From Plantactinospora mayteni (GTDB taxonomy: Bacteria; Actinomycetota; Actinomycetes; Mycobacteriales; Micromonosporaceae): a stretch of 64,000 nucleotides of DNA. The stretch spans positions 186,001-250,000 of the forward strand of contig NZ_BONX01000035.1 of NCBI RefSeq assembly GCF_016862935.1, written 5' to 3'. The notes under the pieces were generated by a model. That model was not told the DNA's origin. It saw only the letters and a list, made by a program, of their open reading frames with translations, and did not search any database. This document shows, piece by piece, positions 33,978-39,139 of this stretch. The stretch's first letter is position 1, and every line of letters starts with the position of its first letter. A program made the position numbers and the translations under genes.

Positions 33978-34052
33978 ATGAGCGAGCGAGTCAGGCGGCT
34001 CGGTGCGGATGTGCCTCATGGCGGCCTGGAGCGCAGTGGAGGGGCGGCATGA
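33978..34052 (+). CDS. Repeated mini-ORF, copy A (before argJ)
   Basis: ATG 33978 follows GGGAGGG at good distance and encodes 24 residues (MSERVRRLGADVPHGG, then LERSGGAA). The final 11 bp carry their own ribosome-binding site (GGAGGGG) and ATGA overlaps the next copy at 34049-34052. The same peptide pattern recurs at 34049 and 39056. Peptide function is unknown; the unit behaves like a portable translation coupler. Confidence 0.55.
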   Translation: MSERVRRLGADVPHGGLERSGGAA

Positions 34053-34132
34053 GCGAGCGGGGCGAGCGGATCAGGCAGTTCAGTGCGGATGTGCCTCGTG
34101 GCGGCCCGGAGCGCAGCGGAGGGGCGGCATGA
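34049..34132 (+). CDS. Repeated mini-ORF, copy B (coupled to argJ)
   Basis: A 27-residue frame beginning MSERGERIRQFSADVPRGG and ending PERSGGAA. It starts within the stop of copy A (ATGA 34049-34052) and ends within the argJ start (ATGA 34129-34132); GGAGGGG lies 4 nt before that start. It is about 80 percent identical in DNA to copies A and C. argJ translation therefore probably depends on ribosomes that finish this frame. Confidence 0.55.
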   Translation: MSERGERIRQFSADVPRGGPERSGGAA

Positions 34133-35304
34133 GTGTCACCGCGCCCCGGGGATTCCGGGCCGCCGGAGTGGCCGCCGGACTCAAGTCCAGCGGCGCCCGG
34201 GACGTCGCGCTGGTGGTCAACGACGGGCCGGACGCCGTGGCGGCCGGGGTCTTCACCGCCAACCGGGTCAAGGCGGCACCGGTGCTCTGGAGTCAGCAGG
34301 TGCTCCGGACCGGCCTGGTCCGGGCCGTGGTGCTCAACTCCGGCGGCGCCAACGCCTGCACCGGGGCGCCCGGCTTCCAGGACACCCACGCCACCGCCGA
34401 ACATGCCGCCGCCGCGCTCTCCGGATCCGCCGACGGCGGGCCGGAGGTCGGCGCAGGTGAGGTGGCGATCTGCTCGACCGGGCTGATCGGCGAGCGGCTG
34501 CCGATGCAGCGGCTGCTGCCGGGCGTGGCGGCGGCGGTGGCCGGGCTGGCCGCCGACGGCGGACTGGCGGCGGCCGAGGCGATCATGACCACCGACACCC
34601 GGTCCAAGACGACCGTGGTCGCCGGTACCGGCTGGACGGTCGGCGGGATGGCCAAGGGCGCCGGCATGCTCGCGCCCGCGCTGGCCACCATGCTCTGCGT
34701 GGTCACCACCGACGCGGTCGCCGGGCCGGCAATGCTGGACGAGGCGCTCCGGGAAGCCTGCCGGGTCAGCTTCGACCGGGTCGACTCGGACGGCTGCCTC
34801 TCCACCAACGACACCGTGCTGCTGCTAGCCAGCGGCGCCTCCGGGATCGCACCGAGCCAGGCCGAGCTGACCGCCGCGGTCACCGAGGCATGCCGGGACC
34901 TGGCCCGGCAACTGGTGGCCGACGCCGAGGGCGCCAGCAAGGAGGTCGCGATCGAGGTGGTCGGGGCGGCCGGCGAGGACGACGCGGTCGAGGTCGGCCG
35001 TTCGGTGGCCCGGAACAACCTGGTCAAGACCGCGCTGTTCGGCAACGACCCGAACTGGGGCCGGATCCTCGCCGCCGTCGGTACCACCGGTGCCGCCTTC
35101 GAGCCGGACGACATCGACGTGGCGGTCAACGGGATCTGGGTCTGCCGGTCCGGTGCCGCCGCCGAGGACCGGGCCAAGGTCGACCTCTCCGGCCGGCAGG
35201 TGGCCATCCGGATCGACCTGCACGCAGGTTCCGCCGAGGCCACCATCTGGACCAACGACCTGTCGCACGCGTACGTGCACGAGAACTCGGCGTACTCGAC
35301 ATGA
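34129..35304 (+). CDS. argJ: Bifunctional glutamate N-acetyltransferase / amino-acid acetyltransferase
   Basis: A 391-residue ornithine acetyltransferase that recycles acetyl groups between N-acetylornithine and glutamate. The precursor cleaves itself before the nucleophilic Thr in [18 protein letters not shown]. Other conserved segments are [28 protein letters not shown] and [19 protein letters not shown]. The ATG at 34129 is set by coupling to the mini-ORF; longer upstream frames run through the repeats and are artefacts. argB follows with an ATGA overlap. Confidence 0.95.
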
Positions 35305-36206
35305 TGCTGACCCGGGATCTGACCGAGGCACAGCGGAAGGCGGCCACCCTCATCGAGGCGCTGCCCTGGCTGGCCCGCTTCTCCGGCTCCACGGTGGTGG
35401 TGAAGTACGGCGGCAACGCCATGATCGACCCCGAGTTGCAGCGGGCGTTCGCCGCCGACATGGTGTTCCTGCGCTACGCCGGGCTGAAGCCGGTGGTGGT
35501 GCACGGTGGCGGGCCGCAGATCTCCGCCATGCTGCGCCGGCTCGGCATCACCAGCGAGTTCAAGGGCGGACTGCGGGTGACCACGCCCGAGGCGATGGAC
35601 GTGGTCCGGATGGTACTGGTCGGCCAGGTCGGCCGGGAACTGGTCGGCCTGATCAACGAGTACGGCCCGTACGCGGTCGGCCTCTCCGGCGAGGATGCCC
35701 GGCTCTTCACCGCAGTACGCCGGCCGGCGTACGTGGACGGCGAACCGGTCGACATCGGCCAGGTCGGTGACGTGGACCAGGTGAACGTCTCGGCGGTCGC
35801 CGACCTGATCTCGGCCGGCCGGATCCCGGTGATCTCCACCGTCGCGCCGGACGCCGACGGTGTGCTGCACAACCTCAACGCCGACACCGCCGCCGCCGCG
35901 CTGGCCGTCGCGCTCCAGGCTCGCAAGCTGGTGGTGCTCACCGACGTCCCCGGGCTCTACGCCGACTGGCCGGACACCGACAGCCTGGTCTCCGAGATCA
36001 CCACCGGTCAGCTCGCCGACCTGCTGCCGAAGCTGGAGTCGGGGATGGTGCCGAAGATGGAGGCCTGCCTGCGGGCGGTCAGCGGCGGGGTGCCGGCGGC
36101 GCACGTGGTGGACGGGCGGGTGGCGCACTCGACCCTGCTGGAAGTTTTCACATCGGAGGGATTCGGCACGATGGTGGTACCCGAGCCCGGGGCGGTCTCG
36201 TCATGA
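35301..36206 (+). CDS. argB: Acetylglutamate kinase
   Basis: A 301-residue amino-acid kinase for the second step of arginine synthesis. It shows the VVKYGGNAM phosphate-binding loop, the glutamate-binding [19 protein letters not shown], and the C-terminal [13 protein letters not shown]. The long C-terminal half includes the helix expected of arginine-inhibited hexameric forms, so feedback inhibition is likely. The start overlaps the argJ stop (ATGA, 35301-35304; ATG 35304 is also possible) and its own stop overlaps argD by ATGA. Confidence 0.95.
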
Positions 36207-37522: not shown

Positions 37523-38547
37523 TGCCCCGGCACTTCCTGCGCGACGACGACCTCAGCCCGGCCGAGCAGTCGGCGGTACTGGACCTCGCCGCCCGGATGA
37601 AGACTGATCGTTACGCTCTGCGCCCGCTCGCCGGCCCCCGGGCGGTGGCGGTGCTCTTCGACAAGCCGAGCCTGCGTACCCGGCTCTCCTTCGATGTCGG
37701 CATCGCCGAGTTGGGCGGCCACCCGATCGTGGTGGACACCCAGGTCACGCACTTCGGCCGGGGTGAGTCGCTGGTCGACGCCGCCCGGGTGCTGTCCCGG
37801 TACGTCGCCGCGATCGTGCTGCGTACCTTCGGCGACGAGCGGATCGCCGAGCTGGCCGAGGGCGCGACGGTGCCGGTGGTGAACGGGCTGACCGACGGGT
37901 TCCACCCCTGCCAGCTCCTGGCCGACCTGCTCACCGTCCGTGAGCGCTGTGGCGGTACCGCCGGCCGGACGTTGGCGTACCTCGGCGACGCGGCCAACAA
38001 CATGGCGCACTCCTACCTCGTCGGCGGGGCGACCGCCGGGATGCACGTCCGGGTCGCCGGCCCGGCCGGCCACGACCCCGACCCGGCCGTCGTGGAGCGG
38101 GCCGCCGAGATCGCCGCCACCACCGGCGGCTCGGTACGCGTACTGCGTGACCCGGTCGAGGCGGTGGCCGGGGCGGACGTGGTCGCCACCGACACCTGGA
38201 CCTCGATGGGGCAGGAGGGCGACGGCCGGGACCGGTTCACCGCCTTCCAGCCGTACCAGGTCAACAAGACCCTGCTGGCCGGTGCCGGGCCGGCGGTCGT
38301 GGTGCTGCACTGCCTGCCGGCGCACCGGGGCGAGGAGATCACCGACGAGGTGCTGGACGGCCCGCGCAGCGCGGTCTTCGACCAGGCGGAGAACCGGCTG
38401 CACGCCCAGAAGGCCCTGCTCGGTTGGCTGCTGGACCGGCACGCCGAGGAGCGGAGCGCTGCCGCTGCCGGTGCCGGCGCGGCGCAGCCGGCCGGCGAGC
38501 CGTCGGCGGCCTCGATCATCGCGTCCGTGGTGGGCGAGTCGGCATGA
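37522..38547 (+). CDS. argF: Ornithine carbamoyltransferase
   Basis: A 341-residue enzyme that makes citrulline from ornithine and carbamoyl phosphate. The carbamoyl-phosphate loop is [15 protein letters not shown], and [11 protein letters not shown] and [13 protein letters not shown] (ornithine-specific HCLP) are present. A short Ala-rich tail extends the C-terminus. It is coupled on both sides (TGATG from argD, ATGA to argR). Confidence 0.95.
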
Positions 38548-39059
38548 CCGGACCGCTGACCCGGGCCGCCCGGCACGCCCGGATCGTCGACCTGATCCGC
38601 GAGCGGGCGATCCGTTCGCAGACCGAGCTGGCCGACCTGCTCGCCGCCGGCGGGGTGCAGGTCACCCAGGCCACCCTCTCCCGCGACCTGGACGAGCTGG
38701 GCGCGGTCAAGGTGCGCGGCGGCGACGGACCCGCCGTCTACCTCATCCCGGAGGACGGAAAGCGACCGCTGCGGGACGCCGAGCAGGCGCCGGCCCGGCT
38801 GATCCGGCTGCTCCGCGAACTGCTCAACGGGGTCGACTCGAGCGGCAACATCGCCGTGCTGCGTACCCCACCCGGTGCCGCCCAGTACCTGGCCAGCGCG
38901 CTGGACCGGGCGGGGCTGCCGGAGGTCGTCGGCACCATCGCCGGCGACGACACCATTTTCGTCGTGGCCCGCGAGGCCACCGGTGGCGCGGCACTGGGGG
39001 AGAAGCTCTCCGCCTGGGCCGCCCGGGAAGAACATGCTGAAGGGAGCACCACACCATGA
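38544..39059 (+). CDS. argR: Arginine repressor
   Basis: A 171-residue repressor. The N-terminal winged helix ([20 protein letters not shown] followed by [14 protein letters not shown]) binds ARG boxes, and the C-terminal oligomerisation domain ([32 protein letters not shown]) binds arginine. It begins at ATG 38544 over the argF stop; an upstream in-frame extension is not needed. It probably controls the promoter at 32788-32848, including its own expression. Its stop overlaps mini-ORF copy C. Confidence 0.95.
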
Positions 39060-39139
39060 GCGAGCGTAGCGAGCGAATCATCAAATTCAGTGCGGATGTG
39101 CCTCATGGCGGCCCGGAGCGCAGCGGAGGGCCGGCATGA
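39056..39139 (+). CDS. Repeated mini-ORF, copy C (between argR and argG)
   Basis: A 27-residue frame beginning [19 protein letters not shown] and ending PERSGGPA. It starts in the argR stop (ATGA 39056-39059) and ends in the argG start (ATGA 39136-39139), with GGAGGG 7 nt before argG. It fills the intercistronic space exactly and keeps the coupling chain unbroken, as if inserted into an existing ATGA junction. Confidence 0.55.

Follow-up and report, generated by a model that had tools for sequence, protein, structure and literature searches.

We analysed a 64,000-nucleotide (nt) stretch of the Plantactinospora mayteni genome (contig NZ_BONX01000035.1; G000:C35:186001-250000 in our genome set), called the window below, for a short repeated unit that lies at the starts of arg genes. 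The genome (G000) measures 9.84 Mb. The forward strand, on which all features named here lie, carries the gene order argC-argJ-...-argD-argF-argR-argG, these six genes being confirmed by NCBIfam, and the best named match of ArgR is that of Plantactinospora endophytica (95%). Units A and B stand in tandem 5' of argJ (34129..35304; NF003802), and unit C occupies the junction of argR (38544..39059; NF002880) and argG (39136..40347; NF001770). Unit A is a short form of 71 nt (33978..34048), 9 nt shorter than unit B (34049..34128) and unit C (39056..39135), which are 80 nt each. Every unit holds a mini open reading frame (mini-ORF), of 24 codons in unit A (33978-34052; peptide MSERVRRLGADVPHGGLERSGGAA, then the stop) and of 27 codons in unit B (34049-34132) and unit C (39056-39139). 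Overlaps of 4 nt, in which the stop codon shares an ATGA with the next start codon, join unit A to unit B, unit B to argJ and unit C to argG, and the stop codon of argR is joined likewise to the start of unit C. The preceding gene, argC (32857..33864; TIGR01850), ends 113 nt before unit A without overlap. An earlier note on this DNA had described these three copies and their arrangement as a coupler of translation; the copies and the overlaps are as described, and the coupling is probable from the arrangement of the reading frames. The note had also given all three copies one peptide pattern, which fits units B and C but not fully the 9-nt-shorter unit A.

Results

The three copies are not due to chance, as the core pattern was found three times in the window with 0.01 expected. 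Genome-wide, the pattern with up to three mismatches (<=3) occurs at 16 places, versus none for the reversed control pattern. A sequence-only model built on these 16 copies (R1) matched unit A at G000:C35:219985-220055, unit B at G000:C35:220059-220135 and unit C at G000:C35:225054-225144, and gave 42 matches in the whole genome at E<=1e-3 and 49 at E<=0.1. Among 41 genomes, 21 were positive with R1, namely 20 of the 25 of the family (P. mayteni included) and one of the 16 outside it. With R2, a model that includes the hairpin described below, the unit was found in 184 of 250 genomes and 31 of 44 genera of the family. The element is not particular to the arg operon, as had been suggested: units also stand 5' of genes that we take, from our own reading of their sequences, to be trpB-, gpsA- and dop-like, and of others. 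An arg-specific regulator was rejected because the copies precede unrelated genes.

For the anatomy of the unit, we used 117 of the 142 model matches from the fetched loci, 114 with both junctions and three without a left junction, the script choosing the junction nearest to the model position. The 25 rows omitted were fragments, antisense matches, duplicate loci and weak rows, and included L159 (39 bits), L265 665-739 (35 bits, a cut third unit) and L160 (34 bits, phase kept). The typical unit is 80 nt long. The start-to-start distance is 68, 71, 74, 77 or 80 nt, a remainder of 2 modulo 3, in 108 of the 114 copies, and in those copies the right DTGA (IUPAC code) provides the TGA on which the mini-ORF ends. 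The right codon is ATGA in 110 copies and GTGA in 4; the left codon is ATGA in 96, GTGA in 12, TTGA in 1 and GTGG or ATGG in 5. The repeat common to both unit ends is DTGA, often DTGAGC.

Of 59 copies with enough flank, 54 have a right ATG that begins a frame at least 80 codons long with the highest GC content at third positions (GC3), versus 240 of 524 control ATGA in the same loci, and four of the five copies that failed this test are followed by another unit. On the left side, 47 of the 85 non-tandem copies have a TGA that ends an upstream frame at least 70 codons long with the highest GC3. Nearly every tested copy leads into a gene or a unit, and about half start inside a gene overlap, as unit C does and unit A does not. 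The position at gene starts with ATGA overlaps and a GGAG-type ribosome-binding site, first described for three copies, is supported.

It appears that the phase of the mini-ORF is maintained and its peptide is not. For intact 80-nt copies read in one frame only (62 of 71, 61 distinct), differences from the consensus at codon positions 1, 2 and 3 numbered 216, 228 and 264; the count of stops in this set is biased by the choice of copies and was set aside. Under a random model, synonymous differences in the 61 copies were 211 versus 188 expected, and non-synonymous differences 491 versus 503 expected, so that the peptide looks neutral. Copies from genome G012 and from genomes G008 and G018 read the conserved DNA in other frames (MSELASES..., MSERERAN..., MSERQRAN...), and their total length still keeps the phase. 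In this way the phase can be separated from the peptide.

The last 35 nt of the unit, ending with the G of the right ATG, are a predicted covarying hairpin that includes the Shine-Dalgarno sequence and the next start codon. In unit A the hairpin (34017..34051) includes GGAG and the next ATG, with two stem mismatches; in unit B (34097..34131) it includes the Shine-Dalgarno sequence and the argJ ATG, again with two; and in unit C (39104..39138), with arms CATGGCGGCCC and GGGCCGGCATG, it includes the Shine-Dalgarno sequence and the argG ATG, with one mismatch. Scored as a symmetric hairpin in this register, 91 distinct copies gave 1456 cells, of which 930 were Watson-Crick, 82 G-T and 23 A-C, and twelve shifted registers had 14-38% Watson-Crick cells. 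In alignment A3, 89.8% of 1211 cells were paired, versus 14-53% (at most 52.7%) in slid versions, and double-change cells numbered 53 versus 12.9 in shuffles, a value reached by 0 of 500 shuffles. The stem contains the start codon and, higher up, GGAG, which would place the ribosome-binding site of the next gene within the hairpin. The 82 G-T versus 23 A-C cells point to a folded sense strand, with transition bias and the fixed start codon also contributing to the excess. Rfam at the gathering score gave no match in the window or in 10 loci.

We then compared filled sites with empty ones. Of 23 sites in the P. mayteni genome, 19 had a usable ortholog (all except L019, L020, L026 and L040), and at 13 of the 19 at least one counterpart was empty. 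Ten of these were found by computed position, with a DTGA at most 3 nt away from where the aligned flank ends (L017, L022, L028, L031, L033, L035, L037, L041, L046, L157), and three by eye (L021, L034, L036). The emptiness of the argJ site (L041) depends on a single weakly aligned flank in P. endophytica, which is apparently one genome with G006 and not independent of it. The six sites with no accepted empty counterpart were L024, L027, L030, L032, L038 and L039; at L032 a relative was 6 nt off and was not scored as empty.

The argR-argG junction is the clearest example. Genome G001 reads ...GGGAGCACCACACC ATGA GCGAGCGCGTCGTACTGG with no unit, its near flanks being identical to those of G000, where 80 nt lie between the flanks. 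In genome G003 this place is occupied by a unit; no unit stands there in G002 and G004, which read ATGACTGAGCGGGTC, and the named Micromonospora loci L076, L078, L079 and L080 read ACACC ATGA C. The argG start in the empty G001 site already reads ATGAGCGAGCGCGTC; because of this, the second ATGAGCGAGCG at argG is argG's own, and ATGAGCGAGCG, once described as the repeat shared by both ends of each unit, is not general. At L028, five relatives have a DTGA alone (GTGA in four). The G000 unit there has a left GTGA and a right ATGA; judging from this pattern, the left codon would be the target's and the right codon the element's. The tandem number at orthologous sites is 2/1/0 at L036, 1/2/0 at L031 and L046, and 1/2 at L027, L032 and L039. 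Units are thus present or absent precisely at ATGA junctions and vary in tandem number, as had been anticipated.

Several other observations were made at such junctions. At the trpC-trpB ATGA, where G000 has an 80-nt unit, a second repeat of 62 nt and of another sequence (ATGAGCGCGAGGA...GGTCAGC, 21 codons) occurs with ATGA overlaps alike, twice in tandem in G004 (L233, bases 239-362 of the reversed locus) and once in G002 (L237, bases 340-401 of the reversed locus). Also at trpC-trpB, G001 (L207) has a 26-nt mini-ORF, ATGAGCCAGCGAAGCGGAGAGCCGGC, perhaps a unit with an internal deletion and the phase kept. At L180 and L184 (G002 and G004, 5' of the dop-like gene), where there is no unit, a 9-codon ORF starting ATGGGCGAGCGGAGCGAGGCGACGG overlaps the gene start and may be a remnant of a unit or an older coupler. 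By eye, argG in P. endophytica (L173/L075, argR to argH) is cut down to remnants of both ends with the argR overlap intact, and argG is apparently missing at this place also in L081, L082 and L083.

Beyond the family, R2 was positive in 58 of 249 genomes of the order, 23 of the 58 being outside the family, and in 18 of 197 genomes of the class, 14 of the 18 being marked 'same class' only. The per-genome copy numbers from the R2 and R3 surveys of family, order, class and genus g26 are lower bounds (12-22 candidates scored per genome). Among 26 named genomes, 10 were positive and the other 16, all non-Micromonosporaceae, had none. R2 counted 33 in P. endophytica, 8-10 in three Micromonospora, 34 in Verrucosispora sediminis, 121 in Catellatospora sichuanensis, 1-5 in three Actinoplanes/Paractinoplanes and 4 (model matches) in Mycobacterium aurum. 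The C. sichuanensis genome (G1010) has several unit lengths, and its 13 tandem spacings among the matches listed are 65, 68, 71 and 74 nt, all with remainder 2 modulo 3.

Genus g26 (family f8), probably Mycobacterium, was positive in 26 of 198 genomes with R2 and in 110 of 396 with R3. Its units (27 loci) are 65 nt long, with 22 codons from ATGA to ATGA (one ends in GTGA), some in tandem, and occur in two frames (MSEACERI... and MSDACGAN...). Because the phase rule served to preselect them, the phase of these units is no test, and L329, cut by a contig end, was omitted. In a stem alignment of 32 of the 37 distinct mycobacterial-type units, 88.8% of the right-end cells were paired and double-change cells numbered 22 versus 8.2 in shuffles; two of five measures were within the shuffle range (257/500 and 156/500). 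Plasmid records gave one match only (Micrococcus sp. 28, 27 nt), and phage records gave none.

Discussion

We propose that the units are probably mobile elements that insert at DTGA start codons and keep, perhaps tighten, translational coupling. A short non-autonomous repeat would insert immediately after the DTGA at which a gene starts, whereupon the target's own DTGA would become the start of the mini-ORF and, where genes overlapped, also the end of the upstream gene. The element would supply a Shine-Dalgarno sequence and, as the new start codon of the target gene, an ATGA of its own. With a length mostly of remainder 2 modulo 3 and an open frame, ribosomes would run through, stop on the TGA in ATGA and restart; since the mini-gene is in the right phase, the gene behind is probably still translatable. 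Ribosomes on the mini-ORF would melt the stem and reinitiate at the ATGA. Access to the gene behind would depend chiefly on ribosomes that translate the mini-ORF, which would make the coupling stricter than before the insertion. The sequences themselves show the dispersal, the precision of the sites, the presence or absence of units, the phase, the covariation in the hairpin and the neutrality of the peptide; from their comparison we infer the movement as such, the translation, the reinitiation and the gating.

A stronger form of this proposal holds that the only cargo is a translational gate, in which a start codon that had been free or loosely coupled is, with each insertion, buried in the hairpin and opened only by a ribosome finishing the mini-ORF; we hold this form tentatively, as somewhat easier to doubt than to accept. 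With the same reserve, the gate family would be spread over many families of the class, which we take as Actinomycetes, and the element would, perhaps, evolve under selection for phase and stem pairing and not for the peptide. Hosts may thereby gain new gene coupling.

Some results weigh against the proposal. In the other 38 of the 85 non-tandem copies, unit A included, the mini-ORF may need its own initiation. The phase rule is broken in six of the 114 copies, and L159, outside that count (39 bits), has a mini-ORF with an early stop. Among the matches listed, tandem spacings in V. sediminis (79 and 81) and in genome G538 (76 and 107) depart from remainder 2, where model starts may be off by at least one base. 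Only 13 of 20 distant copies conform to the scripted phase rule, and few of the 20 fit the 35-nt register, stems of other size being seen by eye only. Of the seven distant copies off the rule, three have a misplaced left end, one is uncalled and three depart (L307, L312, L314); the scripted left end of L313 and L320 lies upstream of the unit. As to the hairpin, RNAalifold predicted no structure on a 103-row alignment, the folding energy is weakly below that of shuffles (mean z -0.86; 19 of 106 below -2), and the structure scored on alignment A3 had been derived from these very sequences. No mover enzyme was found in a search limited to Y1 transposases (PF01797).

In the best surviving alternative, which we consider unlikely, the hairpin acts at the level of DNA, as an element end to which a transposase or recombinase responds in the manner of REP or IS200/IS605 elements; the open frame would then do no more than render insertions harmless, with no extra translational gating. 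This reading agrees with a palindrome that stops exactly at the insertion junction (CATG...CATGA) and with the precise filled and empty sites. However, PF01797, the only transposase family searched, was detected in one of 17 genomes (G002) and was absent from P. mayteni itself and from G004, which has the most R1 matches among the 17. As Y1 is missing in the P. mayteni genome and found in 1/17 overall, it is unlikely that an IS200/IS605 or RAYT mover acts here today. The excess of G-T over A-C departures in the stem also speaks for a folded sense strand rather than a DNA end, with the bias noted above.

An enzyme-free spread, with ATGAGCGAGCG-like starts as the sites of recombination or slippage, is still less probable. 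The tandem number that differs at L036, L031 and L046 agrees with it, and so does the argG start of the empty G001 site, which reads ATGAGCGAGCG. However, several empty sites (GTGACC, ATGACTGAG, ATGAGTGC, GTGAGCGTC) share just DTGA or DTGAGC with the unit, a stretch too short for homologous recombination. The suggestion in the earlier note that a unit could slip or recombine into any ATGA junction thus fits tandem growth and precise loss well, but dispersal poorly. A functional micropeptide or an amino-acid-sensing leader for arg genes is very improbable and was rejected on the codon-position neutrality and the frame changes: the frame is open, the phase is kept, arg genes are nearby and close relatives have similar peptides, but the substitutions look neutral, in other genera this DNA is read in a different frame, many unrelated genes lie behind units, neither Pfam nor NCBIfam matched the three window peptides up to E 1, and these peptides have no arginine-codon run fit for attenuation.

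Returning to mobile units that preserve coupling, the closest known system is that of the mycobacterial interspersed repetitive units (MIRUs), reportedly described by Supply et al. in 1997. The start of the inner ORF of a MIRU overlaps the stop of the upstream gene, which here is the case in 47/85 non-tandem copies. According to a 2025 review, MIRUs are short repeats, seemingly mobile, that insert at start codons in many mycobacteria, and their ORF is coupled at a -4 nt spacing, probably limiting harm (PMC12548453). Another paper gives unit sizes of 77 and 53 bp and, in contrast to the review, a range limited to M. leprae and the M. tuberculosis complex (PMC4213456). As far as these sources go, the likeness covers a short, seemingly mobile repeat at start codons, an ORF coupled at -4 nt, tandem arrangement and variable number, and 77 and 53 bp also have remainder 2 modulo 3. 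The present family is likewise a dispersed multicopy repeat of ~50-100 bp with a 4-nt DTGA overlap (108/114), empty sites (13/19) and tandem variation. By this analogy the units would work like MIRUs, and the view that no described element behaves in this way is wrong (PMC12548453). The differences are the host group, here Micromonosporaceae and other families of the class, the unit sequence, and the covarying hairpin over the start codon, seen in the present units. The 65-nt units of genus g26 (110/396 genomes) may or may not be the review's MIRUs.

Two other groups of repeats are partly alike. REP/BIME and IS200/IS605-derived palindromic elements are short, dispersed, non-autonomous palindromes, as the present unit is, but the latter has an in-phase ORF, a gene-start position and no Y1 transposase in its genome. 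Rickettsia palindromic elements are mobile repeats tolerated through a kept reading frame; they are fused inside genes, whereas the present units are separate ORFs at start codons. The literature search found no Micromonosporaceae or actinobacterial counterpart, as judged from titles and the opening lines of abstracts, no start-codon hairpin and no selection on phase instead of peptide, subscription papers being mostly outside its reach, so that it is weak evidence of novelty. To the extent of our searches, three things are new: the occurrence of the family in and beyond Micromonosporaceae, the hairpin at the start codon, and selection that acts on phase, not peptide.

For annotation, the mini-ORFs call for caution, as they resemble small proteins and their peptide seems functionless. 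The filled and empty pairs at the same operon junctions of sister species make the cost and effect of coupling, and movement of the MIRU type, open to experiment. If the proposal is true, a repeat known from mycobacteria would prove to be general to an entire class of bacteria.

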